DNA from: Candidatus Nanopelagicales bacterium
Lineage (GTDB): Bacteria; Actinomycetota; Actinomycetes; S36-B12; CAIYMF01
DNA: 64,000 bases
Assembly: GCA_017848795.1 (NCBI GenBank)
Contig: JAFIHG010000027.1
Span: forward strand, 1-64,000
Reading direction: 5' to 3'
Within the stretch, counting starts at the first letter, position 1, and each line of letters begins with the position of its first letter. A model generated the notes under the pieces. It searched no databases and was not told where the DNA came from. It worked only from the letters and a program-made list of their open reading frames with translations. Below are positions 24,105-62,904 of the stretch, piece after piece. The translations under genes were made by a program, and so were the position numbers.

Positions 24105-24165
24105 GTTCCGGGTGAATGTGGCAGAAGTCCGCTCTAGACGGACTTCTGCCACATTCACCCGGAAC
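24105..24165. repeat. Palindromic repeat, copy 1
   Basis: Perfect 27-bp arms (24105-24131 and 24139-24165) around a 7-nt loop (CTCTAGA). Arm core TTCCGGGTGAATGTGGCAG. This copy lies in the divergent promoter region between the upper phenol operon and the hydrolase gene, starting 16 bp beyond the candidate IclR site. It is one of four copies in the window and may insulate the two promoters as a two-way terminator. Confidence 0.9.
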
Positions 24166-24193
24166 GCGCGAGGCCAGGCGTTACGGTGCGGGG

Positions 24194-24959: not shown

Positions 24960-26276
24960 ATGACGGTCTCGCTGCACGACCCGCAGACGTACGTCGACGG
25001 TCCGCCGTTCGACGAGCTGGAGCGGCTGCGCGCGATGGGGCCGGTCGCCTGGCTGGACGAACCGGAGCTGCCCGGCCTGGCGGCTGGACCCGGGTACCAC
25101 CTGGTGCTGGAGCACGCGCTGGTGACCGAGGTGCTGCGGGATCCGGACCGCTTCTCCTCGGCGCTGCGCGGCACCCAGGTCAGCGACCCGGCGAGCGCCG
25201 AAGACCTGCGGTACGTGCAGCAGATGATGCTCAACATGGACCCGCCGGAGCACAGCCGGCTGCGGCGCATGGTCGCGCGCTCGTTCACCCCGCGCGCCGT
25301 ACGGTCCTTGGAGGAGCGCATCGCGTGGCACTCCCGGCTGATCGTGGACCGGATGCTCGCCGGTCCGCGGGAGTGCGACTTCGCCAAGGACGTCGCGGCC
25401 GACCTGCCGCTGCTCGCGCTGGCCGACGTCCTCGGCGTACCGGCCGAGGACCGGTGGCTGATGTTCGACTGGTCCAACCGGGTCATCGGCTACCTCGATC
25501 CCGACTACGCCGTCTCGGCGGACTTCGACGCCGCGGCCGGCACCGCGCTGGCCCGGGAGGCGCTGGCGCTGCGACCTGCGCCGGACGCGGATGGCCGGAT
25601 GCCCGACCCGCGCAGCCGTACCGGGATGCCGGACCTCTATCGCTACGCGCATCTGCTCGGTGACGCCAAGCGGCTCGATCCGGGTGCCGACGTCATGTCG
25701 ATCCTGCTGGCCCAGCTCGACGACGAGGGCGGGCTGATATCGGTCGAGGAGTTCGAGAACATGTTCTGGCTGTTCTCGGTCGCCGGGAACGAGACGCTGC
25801 GCAACGGTCTGCCGGGCGGGATGATCGCGCTGCTGTCCGACCCGGAACTGCAGCGCGAGCTGCGTGAACGGCCGACCCTGCTGGAGACGGCGGTGGACGA
25901 GATGCTGCGGTGGTGGACGCCGGTGATGGTGTTCCGGCGCACCGCGACCCGTGACACCGTGCTCGGGCCGGCGCGCGTCGCGGTCGGTGACAAGGTGGTC
26001 GTCTCGTTCCTCGCCGCCGACCGGGACCCGGCAGTGTTCGAGCGGCCCGCTGCGTTCGACGCCCGTCGTACGCCCAACCCGCACCTGTCGTTCGGGCACG
26101 GCCCGCACTTCTGCCTGGGCGCGCACCTGGCGCGGGCGCAGCTGCGGGCGCTGTTCGGCGAGCTGCTCGCCCGTTCGTCCTGGATCGAGGCGGCCGGCGA
26201 CCCGTCGTACCTGCGCTCGAACTTCCAGCGCGGGGTCAAGCGTCTCCCGATCCGCTGGACCCCTGTTTCCGGATGA
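24960..26276 (+). CDS. Cytochrome P450
   Basis: A 438-residue soluble bacterial P450. It has the I-helix AGNETLRN (residues 275-282, acid-alcohol pair altered to Glu-Thr), ExxR in EMLRWW and the haem loop FGHGPHFCLGAHLARA with Cys385 as iron ligand. The AGNET I-helix and the RWWTPVMVFRRTA block resemble actinobacterial CYP families such as CYP124/125/142, which hydroxylate sterol side chains or fatty acyl chains. The substrate here is unknown, and no ferredoxin is adjacent except that of the phenol operon. The stop codon (TCC GGA TGA) lies in the left arm of palindromic repeat copy 2. Confidence 0.9.
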   Translation: MTVSLHDPQTYVDGPPFDELERLRAMGPVAWLDEPELPGLAAGPGYHLVLEHALVTEVLRDPDRFSSALRGTQVSDPASAEDLRYVQQMMLNMDPPEHSRLRRMVARSFTPRAVRSLEERIAWHSRLIVDRMLAGPRECDFAKDVAADLPLLALADVLGVPAEDRWLMFDWSNRVIGYLDPDYAVSADFDAAAGTALAREALALRPAPDADGRMPDPRSRTGMPDLYRYAHLLGDAKRLDPGADVMSILLAQLDDEGGLISVEEFENMFWLFSVAGNETLRNGLPGGMIALLSDPELQRELRERPTLLETAVDEMLRWWTPVMVFRRTATRDTVLGPARVAVGDKVVVSFLAADRDPAVFERPAAFDARRTPNPHLSFGHGPHFCLGAHLARAQLRALFGELLARSSWIEAAGDPSYLRSNFQRGVKRLPIRWTPVSG

Positions 26277-26325
26277 ATGTGGCAGGACGCCGCTAAGAGT
26301 GGAGTCCTGCCACATTCATCCGGAA
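26267..26325. repeat. Palindromic repeat, copy 2
   Basis: Arms 26267-26291 and 26301-26325 (25 bp, one mismatch) around GCTAAGAGT. The arm core is TTCCGGATGAATGTGGCAG. It sits between convergent genes and provides the stop codons of both the P450 (left arm) and the histidine kinase (right arm, complement), each ending Ser-Gly-stop. It probably works as a bidirectional terminator. Confidence 0.9.
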
Positions 26326-27908
26326 CCGGTGGGGAGGTGGACGGTCACGACGGCGCCGGCGTCGTTCGCCACCGCCACGTGCCCACCGTGGGCCTCGGCG
26401 ACCGCGCGGACGATCGCCAGGCCGAGCCCGCTGCCGCCGGTGGTGCGCGAACGTGAGGCGTCGCCGCGGGCGAAGCGTTCGGTGGCCCGCGGCAGCAGGT
26501 CCGCCGGGAAGCCGGGACCGTCGTCGCGCACCTCGAGCTGGATGTGCGGACCGATCCGCAGCGCGCTGACCCGTACCGTCGTTCCGGGCGGGGTGTACGT
26601 GGCGGCGTTCGACAGCAGGTTGGTGACGACCTGGTGCAGCCGCGCCGGGTCACCGGGCACGCTCACGTCCGGACCCACCGGTCCGAGCTGCCAGTCGTGC
26701 TCCGGAGCCACGACGCGGATCTCCGCGATCGCGTCGTCGGCGAGCCGGGCCAGGTCGACCGTACGGTGCTCGAGCGGACGTCCCTCCTCCAGCGAGGCGA
26801 GCAGCAGCAGGTCGTCGACGAGTCCACCCATCCGGGCCGCGGCGGACTCGATACGGGCAGCGGACGCGAGGGCCTGCCCGGGGTGGTCGTCGCCGGCGCG
26901 GCGTACCAGCTCGGCGTAGCCGCGGATCGAGGCGAGCGGGGTACGCAGCTCGTGCCCGGCGTCCGAGACGAACTCCCGCAGCCGTGCCTCGGTGTCCTGC
27001 CGGGCACGCAGCGAGCGTTCGACGTGGTCGAGCATCGCGTTCATCGCGCTCGCCACCTGCCCGATCTCGCTGGCCGGGTCCGCCTCGGGTACCCGATCGG
27101 GGATCGTCACATCGCCGCGGTCGAGGGGGAGGGTCGCCACCTGGCCCGCAGTCTGCGCCACCCGCTGCAACGGTCGCAGCGAGCGCCGGATCCACCAGGA
27201 GGCGGCAAGCGTCACGACGAGCAACGCGACGAGCAGCGCCACGAGCTCGATCACCACGAAGGCCCGGGTCACCGCGCTCACCCGGGAGAGCGGTGTCGCG
27301 GCCACGAGCGTCGCCCGCTCGCCGGTCGAGAGCGTGACTGGTACGGCGACCGCGCGCGCCTCGCCGAGCTCGGAGAGCGAGATCGTGACCGGCGGTGTCG
27401 ACCGCGCCGACGACACCGACTGCAGCGCCCGAAGGTCGGCGGCGCCCACCGGTTCCAGCTGTGCCGGTGCGGGCCCGTACGTCGCGGTCAGCCGCTGAGC
27501 CGACCCCGCGGTGACGAGGAAGACCCCTGCGCCCTGTTGCTGCCACGCCCCGATCGCGTCGGTCGGGCCGTGCAGCGGCGAGGCGCGCAGCGCCTGGTCA
27601 CGTACGGATGTCAGGCCGTCGTCGATCTGACTGACGAGCGAGCGTTGCAGTACGGCGTACGTCGCGACCCCGCAGCCGGCGAGGGCGACCGCCACCACGA
27701 CCAGCAGGCCGAGCACCAGCCGCCATCGCAAGGACAACCCGTGCCACCGCGACCGCTCCTCGGTCGCCGGCTGCGGCGGGGGTACGGCGGGGTGGCCCGT
27801 CGCAGGGCCGGTGGACAACAGTTCGGGCGGCCCGACGGCGACCGCTGGCTCGGGGGGTACGGGCTCGCGCTCCCCGCTCACCGGCGCCCCGGACGCTCGC
27901 TGCACCAT
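26316..27908 (-). CDS. Sensor histidine kinase
   Basis: Membrane sensor of the OmpR-coupled class, 530 residues. A Pro-rich cytoplasmic start (1-57) is followed by TM1 (LVLGLLVVVAVALAGCGVATY), an extracytoplasmic sensor of ~120 residues, TM2 (ELVALLVALLVVTLAASWW), a HAMP domain, the H-box DAGHELRTPLASIRGY with phospho-His319, and N/G boxes (NLLSNAATYTPPG, DDGPGF, GSGLGLAIV). It lies 2 bp downstream of its response regulator. The signal is unknown. Its last two codons and stop come from palindromic repeat copy 2. Confidence 0.92.
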   Translation of the reverse strand: MVQRASGAPVSGEREPVPPEPAVAVGPPELLSTGPATGHPAVPPPQPATEERSRWHGLSLRWRLVLGLLVVVAVALAGCGVATYAVLQRSLVSQIDDGLTSVRDQALRASPLHGPTDAIGAWQQQGAGVFLVTAGSAQRLTATYGPAPAQLEPVGAADLRALQSVSSARSTPPVTISLSELGEARAVAVPVTLSTGERATLVAATPLSRVSAVTRAFVVIELVALLVALLVVTLAASWWIRRSLRPLQRVAQTAGQVATLPLDRGDVTIPDRVPEADPASEIGQVASAMNAMLDHVERSLRARQDTEARLREFVSDAGHELRTPLASIRGYAELVRRAGDDHPGQALASAARIESAAARMGGLVDDLLLLASLEEGRPLEHRTVDLARLADDAIAEIRVVAPEHDWQLGPVGPDVSVPGDPARLHQVVTNLLSNAATYTPPGTTVRVSALRIGPHIQLEVRDDGPGFPADLLPRATERFARGDASRSRTTGGSGLGLAIVRAVAEAHGGHVAVANDAGAVVTVHLPTGSG

Positions 27909-34037: not shown

Positions 34038-34093
34038 CGATCATGACGTCGGTGGGATCGGCAGCGCTGCTGGGCCCACCAACGTCATGATCG
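34038..34093. repeat. GATCATGACGTYGGTGGG palindrome, copy a
   Basis: Arms 34038-34056 and 34075-34093 (19 bp, one mismatch) around an 18-nt loop. A second copy lies at 35168-35223, at the other side of the single gene between them. Likely a hairpin terminator or small dispersed element. Confidence 0.8.
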
Positions 34094-34183
34094 ACGCCGG
34101 TCCGATGTCGTCCACAGCGCTCGAGCCCGGCGCGCTGTTCACAGCAGCCGCCGCCATCGGGGCGTACGCCGTGGCGTGCGGCT

Positions 34184-35176
34184 TTGCTGGGCGACGTGCG
34201 ACCCGTCACCGAGCTGCCCGCCGGCCTGCTCGCCCGAGCCGCGGGACAGTGCGGGCTGGTGAGCGCCGGCGACTGCCACGAGTTCGCCATCAGCACGGCC
34301 CGCCGCCGTGTCCTGTGCGAGCGCCGCACCTGGCGACGCCTCACTACGCGGGTGTACGACACGCGTCCGGGGCGCTTGCGGGCGTTGTCCTTCGAGGAGC
34401 GTGCGCGACGGGGCGCCTGGCTGGGAATGCTCGCGTACGGACCGGACGCGCGGGCAGTGGGCACCTCGGCACTGGCACTGCTCGGGGTCCAAGGACTGCC
34501 GGCCGTACCCACCCCCGAGGTCGCCCTCGCGGACGGCCGCTCGGTGCGCAGCCGCGACGGCATCACGGTCCGACAGCTCGACGCCGACATGCGGCTGGTA
34601 CGGGCGTGCGGTCGGTGGGTCGCGGCACCGGAATGGGCGCTCGCGCAGGCCGTGCCCTTGCTGGACCGCGACCATGCGGTGGCGGTGATGGACTCGATCC
34701 AGCACCTCGGGCGCCTCGACCCGGACGGCTTCGCGTGCGCCCGAGAACTGACCCGCGGTCGTCGGGGAGCCGCGCGCACCCACGGCTGGTGGGCGCTCTC
34801 CGACGGACGGGCCGAGTCACCGTTGGAGACGTTCGGGCGTCTGGACTGCCACGACGTCGGCGTCCCGCCCGACGACCTGCAGGTGGAGATCTTCAGTGAG
34901 CTCGGCGTGCTGCTGGGTCGGGGTGACACCGGATGGCGTCAAGCGAACGGCCGCTGGCTGATCGGCGAACTGGACGGGCGTGGCGTACATGAGTTGCCGG
35001 CGGCGCTGCTGCACGACCGCAGCCGCCAGAACGACTTCCTGCTCGACGGCGATGCCGACGTACTTCGCTTCACCTGGCGCGACATCGGCCCTCACCACCG
35101 GATGGGTCGTACGGTGCAGCGCTTTCTGGCGCGATCCGGCCGGTGGCCGGATCGCGGTGGGTCGCATCGATCATGA
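34184..35176 (+). CDS. AbiEi/DUF559-like hypothetical protein
   Basis: A 330-residue protein. The first part (GLVSAGDCHEFAISTARRRVLCERRTWRRLTTRVYD) resembles the winged-helix start of AbiEi-type antitoxin-like proteins. The end (WLIGELDGRGVHE ... RSRQNDFLLDGDADVLRFTWRDI) resembles the Vsr/DUF559 endonuclease-like fold with its E-x-D and Gln-Asn residues. Such orphan proteins are common in actinobacteria, and no toxin (AbiEii) gene is next to it. The frame opens at TTG 34184; GTG 34196 may be the real start. Its stop TGA lies in the left arm of the palindrome at 35168. Function unknown. Confidence 0.65.
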   Translation: MLGDVRPVTELPAGLLARAAGQCGLVSAGDCHEFAISTARRRVLCERRTWRRLTTRVYDTRPGRLRALSFEERARRGAWLGMLAYGPDARAVGTSALALLGVQGLPAVPTPEVALADGRSVRSRDGITVRQLDADMRLVRACGRWVAAPEWALAQAVPLLDRDHAVAVMDSIQHLGRLDPDGFACARELTRGRRGAARTHGWWALSDGRAESPLETFGRLDCHDVGVPPDDLQVEIFSELGVLLGRGDTGWRQANGRWLIGELDGRGVHELPAALLHDRSRQNDFLLDGDADVLRFTWRDIGPHHRMGRTVQRFLARSGRWPDRGGSHRS

Positions 35177-35223
35177 TGTCAGTGGGATCTGCGGCGTACG
35201 AGGGCCCACCAACGTCATGATCG
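35168..35223. repeat. GATCATGACGTYGGTGGG palindrome, copy b
   Basis: Arms 35168-35186 and 35205-35223 (19 bp, three mismatches, mostly wobble-compatible) around 18 nt. The right arm is identical to that of copy a. The arm gives the stop codon (TCA TGA) of the preceding gene, and the copy lies between convergent genes. Confidence 0.8.
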
Positions 35224-35256
35224 GCGCTGCGCCGGGACCCTGCGGCGGGTGGCGCC

Positions 35257-40402: not shown

Positions 40403-40474
40403 GTTGATCAAGGAGAAGGTGACGTTTCCGATCAAGAAACCAAGATCGAAGACGTCACCTTCTCCTTGATCAAC
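40403..40474. terminator. Bidirectional hairpin between tRNA-Val and metalloprotease
   Basis: Perfect 23-bp arms (40403-40425 and 40452-40474, containing TTGATCAAGGAGAAGG) around a 26-nt loop that holds a smaller CGATC/GATCG stem. It lies between convergent transcripts and probably ends both. The right arm supplies the metalloprotease stop codon (TGA in TTGATCAA). Confidence 0.75.
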
Positions 40475-47958: not shown

Positions 47959-48064
47959 GCCCTCCGCTCTCATCATTTCCCGCGATCCCGGCCCGGTTGT
48001 GGGTGGAGGATCCCGGCGTCGGCCGGACTTGGCACGCGCGGAGATGCCCGTACGGGGACACACC

Positions 48065-48481
48065 TCAGGAAAGACGACGGACCACCTCGCCAAGGATGCT
48101 CTCGATCTGGTCGAAGCGCGGGGTGTGTTCGTCGAGGTTGGTCTCGATCTGGTCGAAGCGGCGGGTGTGCTCGCCAAGGATGCTCTCGATCTGGTCGAGG
48201 TGGCGGGTGTGCTCGTCGAGGTTGGTCTCGATCCGGTCGAGGTGGCGGGTGTGCTCGTCGAGGTTGGTCTCGATCCGGTCGAGGTGGCGGGTGTGTTCGT
48301 CGAGGTTGGTGTCGATCCGGTCGAGGTGGCGGGTGTGTTCGTCGAGGTTGGTCTCGATCCGGTCGAAGCGGCGGGTGTGCTCGTCCTGTGTGGACCTGAG
48401 CTCCGTGATGAGCTCGTAGATCGACTCCGTGTCGTTCTCGAGCCGAGTCACACGGTGACCCATGCTGGGTTCGGTCGCCAT
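48065..48481 (-). CDS. Repetitive coiled-coil protein
   Basis: A 138-residue protein built mainly of seven copies of a 14-residue unit (consensus DEHTRHLDRIETNL), residues about 33-130, after MATEPSMGHRVTRLENDTES. Fourteen residues equal two heptads, with hydrophobic residues at L/I/L positions, so a continuous charged coiled coil is expected. Units vary by H/R, F/L and N/S changes. No membrane segment or enzyme motif is seen. ATG 48481 is the start; ATG 48463 (MGHR) is also possible. Function unknown. Confidence 0.7.
   Translation of the reverse strand: MATEPSMGHRVTRLENDTESIYELITELRSTQDEHTRRFDRIETNLDEHTRHLDRIDTNLDEHTRHLDRIETNLDEHTRHLDRIETNLDEHTRHLDQIESILGEHTRRFDQIETNLDEHTPRFDQIESILGEVVRRLS
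48092..48385. repeat. 42-bp tandem repeats (7 units) within the coiled-coil gene
   Basis: Seven tandem 42-bp units, in frame with the coiled-coil gene, containing (plus strand) GGTGTGCTCGTCGAGGTTGG. Some units are nearly identical at DNA level, which implies recent copy-number change. They are coding repeats, not a CRISPR array. Confidence 0.85.
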
Positions 48482-57309: not shown

Positions 57310-57405
57310 GTGGAGCCTCCGGCGGCGGCGCGGCGTTGGTACCGCGGACGCTACTGCCCGGTAACCCCGTCCGCGAGGTAGGGGGTCACCCCGCGCCGCG
57401 TCGCC

Positions 57406-57468
57406 CGTTCCGGATGAATGTGGCAGGAGTCCGTCAAGAGCGGACTCCTGCCACATTCATCCGGAACG
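57406..57468. repeat. Palindromic repeat, copy 3
   Basis: Perfect 28-bp arms (57406-57433 and 57441-57468) around TCAAGAG; the longest arms of the family. It lies between two minus-strand genes: its right arm gives the Ser-Gly-stop of the epimerase gene, and its other side is the ccr upstream region, where it could terminate read-through into ccr. Confidence 0.9.
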
Positions 57469-57915
57469 TTCTGGGTGAGGCTCGACGAGTTCGACGAGGA
57501 CGCCGCCGCAGTCCTTGGGGTGCACGAAGTTGATGCGCGACCCGGCGGTGCCGGTACGGGGAGCGTCGTACAACAGCCGCAGCCCGGCGCCGCGCAGCCG
57601 CTCGGCGGCCGCCTCGACGTCGCTCACCCGGAACGCCAGCTGCTGGATGCCCGGACCGCTGCGCTCCAGGAACTTCCCGATCGCCGAGTCCGGGCGCAGC
57701 GGGGCCAGCAGCTGCAGCCGGGTGTCCCCGTCACCGGCGACCAGCATCGCCTCCCGTACGCCCTGGTCCTCGTTGGTCTCCTCGTGCTCGTTGACCAGCC
57801 CGAAGTGCCGGCCGTAGAACGCGACCGCGTCGTCGAGGTCGGGTACGGCGATCCCGACGTGGTCGATCGCGGTCACCAGAGCGCCGAGAACCTCGGCCGG
57901 GGAGGAGGGGCTCAC
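57457..57915 (-). CDS. mce: Methylmalonyl-CoA epimerase
   Basis: Interconverts (R)- and (S)-methylmalonyl-CoA. The 152-residue VOC-fold protein has [19 protein letters not shown] (metal His), the Gln of [40 protein letters not shown] (His and Glu metal ligands). GTG 57915 is the start. Divergent from the thiolase gene and followed by ccr on the same strand, so it belongs to the same acyl-CoA route. Its stop is in the palindromic repeat. Confidence 0.9.
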
Positions 57916-57963: not shown

Positions 57964-59151
57964 ATGTCCGACCCGACCGTCATCGTCGCCGGTGCCCGTA
58001 CGCCGATGGGCCGCCTGCTGGGGGCGCTGAAGGACTTCTCCGGCGCCGACCTCGGCGCGGTCGCCATCAAGGGTGCACTGGAACGGTCCGGGGTGGCGCC
58101 CGAACAGGTCGACTACGTGATCATGGGCCAGGTGCTGCTCGCCGGCGCGGGCCAGTGCCCGGCCCGGCAGGCCGCCGCCAAGGCCGGCATCCCGCTGTCG
58201 ACGCCGTCGCTCACCGTCAACAAGGTGTGCCTGTCCGGTCTCGATGCGATCGCGCTCGCCGACCAGCTGATCCGCGCCGGCGAGTTCGACATCGTCGTGG
58301 CCGGCGGCCAGGAGTCCATGACCCAGGCGCCGGCGCTGCTCGCGAGCAACCGTACGGGCGTGAAGTACGGCGATGCCACGCTCGTCGACTCGATGAACCG
58401 CGACGCGCTGCACGACTCGTTCGACTTCATCTCGATGGGCGAGCTCACCGAGCGGGCGAACGGTAAGCACAAGCTGACCCGTGAGGAGCAGGACGCGTTC
58501 GCCGCCCGCTCCCACCAGCTCGCCGCCGCGGCGCAGAAGAACGGCGTGTTCGAGGACGAGATCGTTCCCGTGGAGATCCCGCAGCGCAAGGGTGACCCGA
58601 TCGTGTTCAAGGACGACGAGGGCATCCGCCCCGACACCACCACCGACACCCTCGCGCGGCTGCGTCCGGCGTTCGCCAAGGACGGCACGATCACGGCGGG
58701 CTCCGCCTCGCAGATCTCCGACGGCGCGTGTGCGGTCGTCGTGATGCGCCGCAGCAAGGCCGAGGAGCTGGGTCTGTCCTGGCTCGCGGAGATCGGTGCG
58801 CACGGCGTGGTCGCCGGGCCGGACAACACGCTGCAGAGCCAGCCGGCGAACGCGATCGTGAAGGCCTGCCAGAAGGAGGGCATCGCGCCGTCCGACCTCG
58901 ACCTCGTCGAGCTCAACGAGGCGTTCGCCGCGGTCGGCCTGGTCTCCGCCCGCGAGCTCGGCATCCCCGAGGACAAGGTGAACGTGAACGGCGGCGCGAT
59001 CGCGCTCGGTCACCCGGTCGGGATGAGCGGGGCGCGGATCGCCCTTTCCCTCGCGCTGGAGCTCAAGCGCCGCGGCGGTGGTGTGGGTGCCGCGTCGCTC
59101 TGCGGCGGCGGGGGACAGGGCGACGCGCTGATCCTTCGCGTGCCGGCCTGA
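57964..59151 (+). CDS. Acetyl-CoA C-acetyltransferase (thiolase)
   Basis: Condenses two acetyl-CoA to acetoacetyl-CoA, or the reverse in beta-oxidation. The 395-residue thiolase has nucleophile Cys89 ([10 protein letters not shown]), His350 ([15 protein letters not shown]) and Cys380 ([11 protein letters not shown]). With ccr and the hydroxyacyl-CoA dehydrogenase it can feed the ethylmalonyl-CoA pathway. The MeaB gene starts 5 bp after its stop. Confidence 0.93.
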
Positions 59152-59156
59152 CCACG

Positions 59157-59918
59157 GTGACCGTCGCGGACCAGCTCGCCCGGGCCCGCGACGGCTCGGT
59201 ACGCACGCTCGCGCGGCTGCTGAGCCAGGTGGAGGACGGCGACGGCGAGGACGTTCTCGCCGCTGCGGCGGCCTACCCCCGCCACGCGCACATCATCGGG
59301 CTCACCGGTGCACCGGGCGTCGGGAAGTCGACGATCACCTCCCGGCTCGTCGCATGCTTTAGGGGGGACGGGGCGCGCGTCGCGGTGCTGGCCGTCGACC
59401 CGTCCTCGCCGTTCAGCGGCGGGGCGTTGCTGGGGGACCGCGTCCGGATGGGCGAGCATGCGCTGGATCCCGGCGTGTTCGTACGGTCGATGGCGACCCG
59501 TGGGCACCTCGGCGGGCTCGCCGCGGCCGCCCGCTCCGCGATCCGCGTGCTCGACGCGGCGGGCTTCGACATCGTGCTGGTCGAGACCGTCGGGGTGGGG
59601 CAGAGCGAGGTCGAGATCGCCGCTGCCGCCGACAGCACCGTCGTGCTCGTGGCCCCCGGGATGGGCGACGGGATCCAGGCGGCGAAAGCGGGCATCCTCG
59701 AGATCGCGGACGTACTCGTCGTGAACAAGGCCGACCGCGACGGCGCCCGCGCCGCGGTCCGGGAATTGCGCGCGTCTGTGCGCCGCAGCGGGGGTGGCGA
59801 CTGGGAACCGCCCGTACTGACGACCGTCGCCGCGACCGGCGAGGGCGTACCGGACCTCGTCGAGGCCCTGCGCCAGCACCGCCTGTTCCGGGTGAATGTG
59901 GCAGGACTCCACTCTTAG
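59157..59918 (+). CDS. meaB: MeaB/ArgK-type G3E GTPase, C-terminally truncated
   Basis: P-loop GTPase that protects and reloads methylmalonyl-CoA mutase with adenosylcobalamin. Walker A is GAPGVGKST (51-59), the switch regions AVDPSSPFSGGALLGDR and VETVGVGQSE, and the base-specific NKAD near 190. The 253-residue product is ~70 residues shorter than the family: after EALRQHR the frame enters palindromic repeat copy 4 (residues 243-253 are repeat-coded, stop in its loop). The C-terminal dimerisation arm is therefore lost. Start GTG 59157. Confidence 0.88.
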   Translation: MTVADQLARARDGSVRTLARLLSQVEDGDGEDVLAAAAAYPRHAHIIGLTGAPGVGKSTITSRLVACFRGDGARVAVLAVDPSSPFSGGALLGDRVRMGEHALDPGVFVRSMATRGHLGGLAAAARSAIRVLDAAGFDIVLVETVGVGQSEVEIAAAADSTVVLVAPGMGDGIQAAKAGILEIADVLVVNKADRDGARAAVRELRASVRRSGGGDWEPPVLTTVAATGEGVPDLVEALRQHRLFRVNVAGLHS

Positions 59919-59945
59919 CGGAGTCCTGCCACATTCATCCGGAAC
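59885..59945. repeat. Palindromic repeat, copy 4
   Basis: Arms 59885-59910 and 59920-59945 (26 bp, one G/T mismatch) around ACTCTTAGC. The loop is the reverse complement of that in copy 2. It lies between convergent genes and includes the last 11 codons and stop of meaB. Confidence 0.9.
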
Positions 59946-59951
59946 GAGGGG

Positions 59952-60413
59952 TCAGTGGGCGAGCCAGGCGTCGGGGTCGGCGGCCAGCGTGCGTACGTGG
60001 GCCGGGAGTTCCCCGGACGCGAGCGCCGCGATCGACACCTCCTCCAGCACCTGGCGTACCGCCGCGCGCAGCGCCACCCACAGGTCGGGCATGGCGGCGG
60101 CGGCGCCCTCGTAGCTCGTGTCCTCCGGGCGCAGTCCGCGTACGCCGGCGAGCGGCCCGTCGACCGAGCGGATCACGTCCGCGATGCTGATCTGCTCGGC
60201 CCCCCGCGCCAGTCGGTAGCCGCCCTCGGCGCCGCGGCGGCTGATCACGATCCCGTCCTTGCGCAGGCCGGTGAGGATGCTCTCGAGGTACTTGGTGGGC
60301 AGGTCCTGCCGTCCGGCGAGTACGTCCACGCTCGTGTAACCGGTGCCGGGCGGCCGCGTGGCGAGCTCGAGCAGCGCCCGGATCGCGTAGTCCGCCTTGG
60401 CCGATACCTGCAT
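59952..60413 (-). CDS. Rrf2-family transcriptional regulator
   Basis: A 153-residue winged-helix regulator: MQVSAKADYAIRALLELATRP then PTKYLESILTGLRKDGIVISRRGAEGGYRLAR, typical of Rrf2. There is no Cys in the protein, so it cannot bind an Fe-S cluster via the three-Cys motif of IscR/NsrR; it is closer to CymR-like members. ATG 60413 is the most family-like start (others at 60422 and 60437). Targets unknown; it is not coupled to neighbours. Confidence 0.87.
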   Translation of the reverse strand: MQVSAKADYAIRALLELATRPPGTGYTSVDVLAGRQDLPTKYLESILTGLRKDGIVISRRGAEGGYRLARGAEQISIADVIRSVDGPLAGVRGLRPEDTSYEGAAAAMPDLWVALRAAVRQVLEEVSIAALASGELPAHVRTLAADPDAWLAH

Positions 60414-60431
60414 GCCGGACATTGTGCCCGC

Positions 60432-60515: not shown

Positions 60516-61076
60516 TCAGAACCTGACGGTGGGAGGGGACGCGCTGCCCGCGGGCGCCTGGTAGAACTCACGCCGGTGCACTCCGGCCATGCCGGAGAAG
60601 AACATCCAGGGCAGGGTGCGTACGGCGGTGTTGAGGGTCGCGGCCGCGTCGTTGTAGTACTGCCGCGCGAACGCGAGCTGGTTCTCGGTGTCCGCGAGCT
60701 GGCGCTGCAGGTCCAGGAAGTTCGTCGACGCCTTGAGATCCGGGTAGTTCTCGGCCACCGCCATCACGTCGACGAGCGCCTTGTCGAGCGCCGCGTCGGC
60801 GGCCGCCTTCTGCTCGACGGTCCCCGAGCGGGCGGCCTCGGTGACGCCGGTCCGCGCCGCCGTCACCTGCTCGAGCACGGACTTCTCGTGCGTCGCGTAT
60901 CCCTTCACCGTCTCCACGAGGTTCGGTACGAGGTCGGCGCGCCGGGTGAGCTGGACGTCGATGCCGCCGAGGGCCTCGTCGGCCCGCACGTCCGCGGACC
61001 GCAGCTTGTTGAACCCGACGACGCCGAGGATCACGAGCAGTACGACGACGACGAGGACGATGATCAGTACGGTCAC
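60516..61076 (-). CDS. LemA family protein
   Basis: A 186-residue LemA protein: N-terminal TM (VLIIVLVVVVLLVILGVVGF) with a long helical bundle containing LVPNLVETVKGYATHEKSVLEQVTAAR and NYPDLKASTNFLDLQRQLADTENQ. LemA proteins are membrane-anchored and of unknown function, often encoded beside a DUF2207 gene as here (82 bp after it). Start GTG 61076. The C-terminal tail after WMFFSGMAGVHRREF is family-typical. Confidence 0.9.
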   Translation of the reverse strand: MTVLIIVLVVVVLLVILGVVGFNKLRSADVRADEALGGIDVQLTRRADLVPNLVETVKGYATHEKSVLEQVTAARTGVTEAARSGTVEQKAAADAALDKALVDVMAVAENYPDLKASTNFLDLQRQLADTENQLAFARQYYNDAAATLNTAVRTLPWMFFSGMAGVHRREFYQAPAGSASPPTVRF

Positions 61077-61158: not shown

Positions 61159-62904
61159 TCACCATGATCCCCCGCCGCCTCCGCCGCCCCCACCGCCTCC
61201 ACCGCCACCTCCGCCGGACGAGGAGGACTGCGAGGCGGAGTAGGCGCTGATGGAGGAGCTGAGCGCGTGGTCGAAGCTGTCGAAACCACCGCCGGAGCCC
61301 GACCAGCCGGTGCCGTAGCCGGCGTACGCGGGGTACCAGTCGGGCTGCGGCGGCTCTTCGCCGGTGGCGGTCCGGTACTTCTGGGCCCAGCGGTCGGCGA
61401 CGCCGAACGCGACCGCGTACGGGATGTAGGCGACGTAGAGGTCCTTGCGGGCAGCGAAGTCGAACCGGTCCTCGGCGGACGACGTCGAGAGCAGCCGGCG
61501 GAATCCGCCGGCCTCCGCCCAGGCACGCCGACCGGCCTGCGTGCGGCGGGTGCCGACGCCCACCTTCATCAGGCCGTACCCGCCGATGACGAAGGCGGCG
61601 AACGGCAGGCCGTACATGGTGAGCCCGCCGGGCCATCCGAGGAATCCGGCGATCGCGAGCAGCGCGCAGAGCAGCCAGACGCGCCGCCCCCACCGCTCCC
61701 CGGAGGCTTTGGCGGAGAGACCGGCGCCCTGCGCCCATGGCGCGACGCCCGCCACGAGCTCGCTCGTCGCCTTGCTGAGGGTCTCGCCGGCGTCCTTGCT
61801 GCCGTCGGCTCGGAACTGGTGCCCGGCGAACGTGATGCCGAGACGGCGACCGACCTGTGCCGTGAGCGGGTCGGCGTCCCGCCACTGCTGCGGGGTCCCG
61901 GTGCCGGTGACGACCCAGTCGTCGCTGCCCTGCTGCTCCAGGTCGACCAACCCGCTGGCCGCCATGTGCAGCAGGGTGCTGGTGAGTGCGTGCTTGCCGG
62001 CGGACTCCTGGTCCAGGTAGACCGTCTGGACCGGGCCGAGCCCGGCAGGCGGGGCGTACATCACCGGGAATCCCGGCGGGGACTCGTCCGCGCTGCGCAC
62101 CCAGGCGACTCCGGCGCCGAGCGTGACGAGGCTGAGCAGCCCCACCAGCAGCGCGAGCGGGACGCTCGTGCCGAGCACCCCGTCCAGCGTGACCGGCCAC
62201 GGCAGATGGGCGCGCGCCGGCGGGGCGAGCGCCATCGGCAGGTCGGCGTGCACGCCGCTGATCGGCGGCAGGTTCTTCGCGGTGAGCGTCACCCTCGTGG
62301 TGCCCGACCCCTTCGTGGCGCAGGTGCGCCCGACGACGAGGACGTCACAGTTCACCGCGAGCGCCGCGCTGGGCAGCTCCACGGTGACCACCGCGCGCTG
62401 GATCTGCATGAGCCACGCCCGGGCGACGACGTCCCACCGGAACGAGGCCTGGTCCGGCCGGCCCTCGACCGGTGAGAGCACGCCTGCGACCCGGTAGACG
62501 ATCCGGTACTGGTGCGTGCCGGGCGTCACCGTGCGGTCCGGATCGCCGATCTTGGCGACGTAGAACCGCCGCGAGTTCTCCCACAGCGTCTCGTACGGCT
62601 CGGGCGTGCCGTCCAGAGTCACCGAACGGATCTCGGGCTGGTACCGGACGCCGCTGTCGGCCGAGTCCGCGACGTCCCAGAACTGGAAGATCCCGTGCCG
62701 GCCGTACGGGAACTCAGCCGTGATCGTCTCGGTGGCGACTAGTGTCCCGTCCGCTCCGACGACGTACGCCGCGTCGAACCGGCTGATCGTGACGGGGTCT
62801 GCGGATGCCGACCCGCCGGCCGGCACCTGGGCGGCGACGACCGGCCACAGCAGGCCGGCGAGCGTCAGCACGACGAGCAGGAGCAGGACGACCAGTCGCT
62901 TCAT
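61159..62904 (-). CDS. DUF2207 membrane protein
   Basis: A 581-residue predicted membrane protein: signal sequence MKRLVVLLLLVVLTLAGLL, an extracellular DUF2207 domain (ISRFDAAYVVGADGTLVATETITAEF near residue 43), TM near LGTSVPLALLVGLLSLVTLGAG (about 245-265), a central cytoplasmic region and two further TM segments near 418-450. The C-terminus is Ser/Gly-rich, with a run of about 15 Gly then Ser-Trp. It pairs with LemA. Function unknown. Confidence 0.87.
   Translation of the reverse strand: MKRLVVLLLLVVLTLAGLLWPVVAAQVPAGGSASADPVTISRFDAAYVVGADGTLVATETITAEFPYGRHGIFQFWDVADSADSGVRYQPEIRSVTLDGTPEPYETLWENSRRFYVAKIGDPDRTVTPGTHQYRIVYRVAGVLSPVEGRPDQASFRWDVVARAWLMQIQRAVVTVELPSAALAVNCDVLVVGRTCATKGSGTTRVTLTAKNLPPISGVHADLPMALAPPARAHLPWPVTLDGVLGTSVPLALLVGLLSLVTLGAGVAWVRSADESPPGFPVMYAPPAGLGPVQTVYLDQESAGKHALTSTLLHMAASGLVDLEQQGSDDWVVTGTGTPQQWRDADPLTAQVGRRLGITFAGHQFRADGSKDAGETLSKATSELVAGVAPWAQGAGLSAKASGERWGRRVWLLCALLAIAGFLGWPGGLTMYGLPFAAFVIGGYGLMKVGVGTRRTQAGRRAWAEAGGFRRLLSTSSAEDRFDFAARKDLYVAYIPYAVAFGVADRWAQKYRTATGEEPPQPDWYPAYAGYGTGWSGSGGGFDSFDHALSSSISAYSASQSSSSGGGGGGGGGGGGGGGGSW

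Follow-up and report, generated by a model that had tools for sequence, protein, structure and literature searches.

Defects in human MMAA cause disease, and the stand-alone chaperones of the MeaB/MMAA group (TIGR00750, PF03308; PDB 2qm7/2qm8, 8dpb and 6cum) are P-loop GTPases. In PMC10356863 and PMC10481361, MeaB and MMAA are described as dimers with the C-terminal arm as the hinge of activation, the former source assigning this hinge role to the arm of MMAA; mutants of meaB are described in PMC12632250. A different arrangement is seen in IcmF (PDB 4xc6), in which a G-domain without a C-terminal arm is fused to mutase domains. According to PMC10481361, the active state of the G-protein arises through oligomerisation in IcmF and through a conformational change in MeaB. 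No report of a stand-alone MeaB lacking the arm was recognised in the literature consulted, which was accessible in part.

The meaB gene described here lies in a 64,000-nt window (the whole stretch of DNA that was analysed) from a Candidatus Nanopelagicales bacterium. Its product shares the P-loop GTPase fold, as predicted, and the invariant residues of the stand-alone chaperones, but it lacks the extension that follows residue 267 of the M. extorquens protein and carries 11 foreign residues instead. In extent it equals the IcmF G-domain, similarly without an arm; in contrast to that domain, to which it is approximately 32% identical, it is not fused to a mutase, and as a stand-alone ORF of 253 aa it falls outside the IcmF proteins. 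The gene sits in a ccr-mce-thiolase cluster with the following features, where G001 denotes the only same-genus genome:

55975..57309, minus strand: crotonyl-CoA carboxylase/reductase-like gene, presumably ccr (named with the help of synteny); ADH_N/ADH_zinc_N, 80-84% identity in family relatives
57457..57876, minus strand: methylmalonyl-CoA epimerase-like gene, which we take to be mce; Glyoxalase_4, synteny
57964..59151, plus strand: thiolase, 5 nt upstream of meaB; Thiolase_N/C, synteny in relatives
59157..59918, plus strand: meaB ORF, 253 aa, GTG start, TAG stop inside the palindrome loop; PF03308 E 1.3e-83, TIGR00750 287.3 bits
59157..59882, plus strand: native part, MeaB G-domain, residues 1-242; invariant columns, structure model, Z 27.0 to 2qm8 residues 6-267
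59883..59918, plus strand: repeat-encoded tail LFRVNVAGLHS and stop, read from the sequence
59885..59945, no strand: palindromic repeat copy 4 (45-nt core 59893-59937 plus outer arms), supplying the end of meaB
59952..60422, minus strand: Rrf2-family regulator (PF02082), stop 5 nt from the repeat; occupies the place of duf253 in G001
60516..61076, minus strand: lemA (PF04011), also downstream of meaB in G001
61159..62904, minus strand: DUF2207 membrane protein (profile match, synteny), neighbour of lemA in G001 too

As the initial annotation had read it, the meaB frame enters the repeat and stops in its loop at 253 residues; the interval up to 59945 given there covers the ORF plus the remainder of repeat copy 4. 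The last native residue is R242 (CGC, 59880-59882), and residues 243-253 together with the TAG codon (59916-59918) are encoded by the repeat and its loop. The protein passes the curated TIGR00750 cut-off (240.75 bits) and, with 280.6 bits, that of PF03308 (23.1 bits), but does not reach the longer model NF006958 (222.8 vs 329 bits). Its profile matches end at position 239 of 300 (TIGR00750) and 237 of 273 (PF03308), indicating that the C-terminal end of MeaB is missing. The lost part had been named as the C-terminal dimerisation arm, and the comparison with relatives proposed at the time bears this out: all 32 full-length orthologues read (from 31 relatives) continue for 56-87 residues beyond the aligned end of the cut MeaB. 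The MeaB of G001 runs on for 69 residues, and the same-genus and same-family orthologues readable to a stop for 61-70, so that a natural end at this position was met in neither genus nor family. Among the closed orthologous frames beyond these 32, those of G045 and G058 stop at the aligned end, and G014 is cut by a contig end.

The extension was absent not only from the profile matches but also from the DNA downstream and from the rest of the genome. A search of the own assembly (a 57-contig draft, 98% complete) with the C-terminal piece from G001 gave no credible match (best E 0.046, 16 bits), and no remnant of the meaB 3' part was found after the repeat, where the best match reached 24 bits without composition correction; in the control, the main printed hits in the G001 locus scored 39-67 bits. 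The truncation to the G-domain is real and is seen in a single genome. In our assessment, meaB probably lost its C-terminal dimerisation extension by local deletion or replacement, a loss presumably tolerated via redundancy.

Sixty of the 61 columns that are invariant in the sequences of 34 relatives are kept in the cut MeaB, including what we take to be the P-loop, switch and base-specificity residues. The names of these G-protein motifs follow PMC9974510 in part. The predicted model of the cut MeaB (pLDDT 80.5, pTM 0.84) is weak at residues 83-93. It superposes on residues 6-267 of M. extorquens MeaB at 2.7 Å with 243 residues aligned, and its residues 1-246 superpose on residues 163-419 of IcmF (4xc6; Z 22.5, 3.0 Å, 234 aligned); thus, the point of truncation coincides with the end of the IcmF G-domain. 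With regard to divergence, the cut MeaB averages 6.2 identity points below the prediction based on thiolase (11 comparisons; the next lowest, G057, lies at -4.1), which hints at relaxed constraint. Divergence as proof of decay was dropped, since the branch of the G001 MeaB, which has kept its C-terminus, is just as long (0.355, versus 0.365 for the cut MeaB).

The cut gene could also be a non-functional pseudogene in early decay, redundant with a mutase-linked MeaB. Domain loss, redundancy within the genus and the faster divergence would fit such a state, but we consider it rather unlikely: there is no frameshift or stop within the 242 native codons, one of 61 invariant columns is changed, and the start codon and the 5-nt spacing to the thiolase are in place. 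With the truncated state present in one genome only, a recent event, slow decay and retained function look alike.

The initial annotation had expected function to be affected unless a second copy existed, and this exception applies, as the search that it advised for a second meaB and for mutase genes yielded both. A full-length MeaB of 324 aa is encoded directly behind the large subunit of a mutase, whose second subunit precedes it, and an IcmF-like frame of 1204 aa occupies a separate locus (C38). Another contig carries a mutase frame of 692 aa, presumably an ethylmalonyl-CoA mutase by context, of a kind that shares contigs with the present meaB in relatives. The mutase-linked MeaB also occurs in G001 (71% over 52 aa up to the contig end); a full second MeaB of this type was found in none of the other 15 family members examined. 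G007 contains a partial match to it at 48%, and the second MeaB encoded in G003 and in G010 belongs to other types. The loss of the C-terminus may be mild because a second full-length MeaB exists and because a related genus has a tail-less MeaB; it is probably tolerated through redundancy.

That related genus, g23 (of another family, f7, in the same order), is represented by three genomes (G045, G058 and G140; loci L034, L035 and L224), all of which encode a MeaB of 236-243 aa that, like the cut MeaB, ends right after the G-domain. This short protein is the only MeaB over the cut-off in each genome, with one mutase each, counts that stem from genomes 86-92% complete in which a second MeaB could be missed. 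The gene lies between the thiolase and a gene that we take from its motif to be thioredoxin-like, the start of which overlaps the meaB stop by 4 nt; the thiolase-meaB order is kept in all three genomes, with mce before it in G045 and G058. In contrast to the cut MeaB, the g23 protein has a natural end common to three genomes, lacks such a repeat and has no second MeaB over the cut-off beside it. The PF03308 match extends slightly beyond the meaB stop in two of the genomes, G045 and G058 (with 1 and 3 stops inside, respectively), and a search with the C-termini of relatives found no C-terminal remnant there. As predicted from these gene sequences, the order includes a genus whose MeaB is arm-less by nature, a finding that sits poorly with the expectation that loss of the arm should affect function.

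By analogy, the arm-less cut MeaB could still work. It might serve as a G-protein chaperone of ethylmalonyl- or methylmalonyl-CoA mutase, its G-domains pairing transiently via switch III as in IcmF and the extension being dispensable. Such a role would agree with the intact G-domain and its invariant columns, with an extent equal to that of the IcmF G-domain, with the short MeaB that accompanies a mutase in 3/3 g23 genomes and with the activation of IcmF by oligomerisation, not conformational change (PMC10481361). It is weakened by the function of the arm as activation hinge of MeaB/MMAA dimers (PMC10356863 and PMC10481361), by the divergence faster than thiolase predicts, by the incompleteness of the g23 genomes, by the PF03308 match past the stop in two of them (though without a C-terminal remnant) and by the 11-residue foreign tail; we entertain it only tentatively. 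A wider proposal, which we regard as doubtful, is that stand-alone MeaB can work without the dimerisation arm, this condition having been fixed in one genus and reached again here by palindrome-associated truncation. If true, a G-domain-only chaperone would represent a second route, beside the IcmF fusion, to a B12-loading G-protein that pairs only on the mutase via switch III. In published work, activation of MMAA/MeaB turns on the C-terminal arm as its hinge; natural G-domain-only MeaBs, in one genus with no second MeaB over the cut-off, would provide material with which to test the need for the arm.

The cut meaB is followed by the repeat, rrf2, lemA and the DUF2207 gene. Behind meaB in some relatives (L033, L040 and L046), there is a convergent gene of approximately 250 aa, duf253, which lies directly beside meaB in G001 and G015, at a distance of about 0.55 kb in G002 and of about 1.5 kb in G009, G011 and G016. 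Of 14 family loci that were read, from 13 genomes, 6 have it near meaB, and several others break off shortly after meaB; it is absent from the window, where rrf2 takes its place. An rrf2 gene convergent with meaB is likewise found in G057, a genome from another family, and of the two neighbours rrf2 may therefore be the older. Loss of duf253 was dropped as a proven step, the gene being seen near meaB in only 6/14 family loci, and is retained as a presumed one. In G001, too, meaB is followed by lemA and DUF2207, which shows that what lies on either side of the junction belongs together and makes misassembly unlikely. Repeats of such kind can cause misjoins of short reads, here at a 35-copy palindrome, and the genome is a draft of 57 contigs; on the other hand, approximately 61 bp is shorter than usual reads and no other part of the assembly yielded the missing C-terminus. 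An assembly artefact is thus very improbable in our view.

By similarity, the palindromic repeat is present in 4 copies in the window and in 35 in the 3.445-Mb genome, 34 of which are recovered by the exact core pattern. Besides copy 4, the window contains:

24105..24170, no strand: repeat copy 1, between divergent ORFs
26267..26329, no strand: repeat copy 2, flanked by a convergent pair of ORFs, each with its Ser-Gly end inside the copy
57402..57468, no strand: repeat copy 3, supplying the last codons (Ser-Gly-stop) of mce

No copy deviates from a core length of 45 nt, the outer arms bringing the total to about 61 nt, and the 61-nt alignment of the 35 copies is ungapped. Folded as RNA, positions 59875-59955 reach -62.3 kcal/mol against a mean of -25.9 in 200 shuffles (z = -12), far beyond chance. 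The repeat covaries: both sides have changed in 13 of 28 pairs, compared with 7.5 in shuffles (0/500 as high), and pairing holds in 92.9% of the cells of the repeat alignment as opposed to 30-43% in slid versions. Positions between called ORFs, or an overlap with the end of one, account for 34/35 copies, the remaining one being inside an ORF, and 7/35, the meaB copy included, are situated between convergent 3' ends. A facing gene 3' end lies within 60 nt for 31/35 copies, compared with 31% for random intergenic placement in the same stretches, figures that depend on a simple codon-usage gene caller and on control stretches chosen around the repeats, which limits the control.

Among the 70 arms (35 copies, both strands), one reading frame hits a stop 8 nt in for 68, which explains why many ORFs end Ser-Gly-stop (12 with the stop inside a copy); a second frame is open in 61, and the third, in which meaB enters, meets the loop stop in 31. 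The ends of 17 ORFs reach into a copy; the overlap is 39 nt for meaB and does not exceed 16 nt for any of the other 16. Nine of these 16 were scanned, and none looks cut: their matches stop 0-12 positions before the end of the Pfam model in eight cases and 27 before it in a P450, as against 36 of 273 for MeaB. By the exact core pattern, none of the 165 other genomes examined from the order and none of 395 others in the phylum sample contained the repeat, nor, by similarity, did any of 20 relatives, among them G001 (72% complete). A search for the Y1 transposase (PF01797) gave no match in the own genome and was positive in 5 of 14 control genomes.

Under the deletion or replacement that we favour, one breakpoint would lie at meaB codon 242, and the segment up to lemA (the meaB 3' end plus duf253 in G001) would have been replaced by the repeat plus rrf2. 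The repeat supplies 11 codons, the loop stop being used because the frame misses the usual TGA, and the product is a G-domain-only MeaB, the loss probably being tolerated owing to the full-length mutase-linked MeaB in the genus and the G-domain that the IcmF-like protein itself carries. We infer this deletion or replacement, the order of events, the tolerance through redundancy and a reduced function. The initial annotation had ascribed the truncation to the repeat: the frame does end there, but a plain insertion is at odds with the missing 3' remainder and with a neighbour that differs from that in G001. A model in which a mobile palindrome simply inserted itself into meaB, the untranslated 3' part being lost afterwards, would draw on the 35 dispersed copies here and their absence from the other genomes searched, which suggest mobility, and on the one other copy that lies in frame inside an ORF. 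We nevertheless judge it improbable, as no meaB remainder follows the repeat, no transposase of the Y1 family (the only one sought) was found, and the rrf2 stop 5 nt away, usual for copies at convergent 3' ends, suits a repeat whose place at a 3' end predates the deletion. From sequence, insertion followed by deletion and deletion up to the repeat are indistinguishable.

Rickettsia palindromic elements can be read in frame, and both they and REP elements are dispersed, mostly extragenic palindromes, as is the repeat described here. One copy of the latter (L173:3959-4024; G000 C22:30658-30723) is read in frame within a P-type ATPase ORF of 805 aa, where it encodes about 20 residues a short way past DKTGTLT, presumably in a manner resembling the Rickettsia elements. 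The repeat differs from both groups in its fixed core and total length, its 35 copies, seen in one genome, and the lack of a detectable Y1 transposase. REP elements with a RAYT transposase are palindromes of 20-40 bp (PMC3733652) that usually exceed 100 copies (PMC2817692); the present repeat is longer (45-nt core, about 61 nt in total), less numerous and without a PF01797 match, while sharing the extragenic position in 34/35 copies. It is a minor result in its own right: a palindrome that was met in no other genome searched and that provides the stop codon of a dozen ORFs. Taken alone, the truncation is of modest interest, and more can be expected from the stop-supplying palindrome and from the MeaBs that naturally lack the arm.

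Other repeated sequences occur in the window. A second repeat pair, another palindrome-like sequence of 67 nt, is found at 34038-34104 and 35168-35234 (81% alike); a 31-nt inverted repeat at 40403-40474 is 94% complementary, with 10 nt between its arms; and direct repeats with a 42-nt period extend over 48044-48427.
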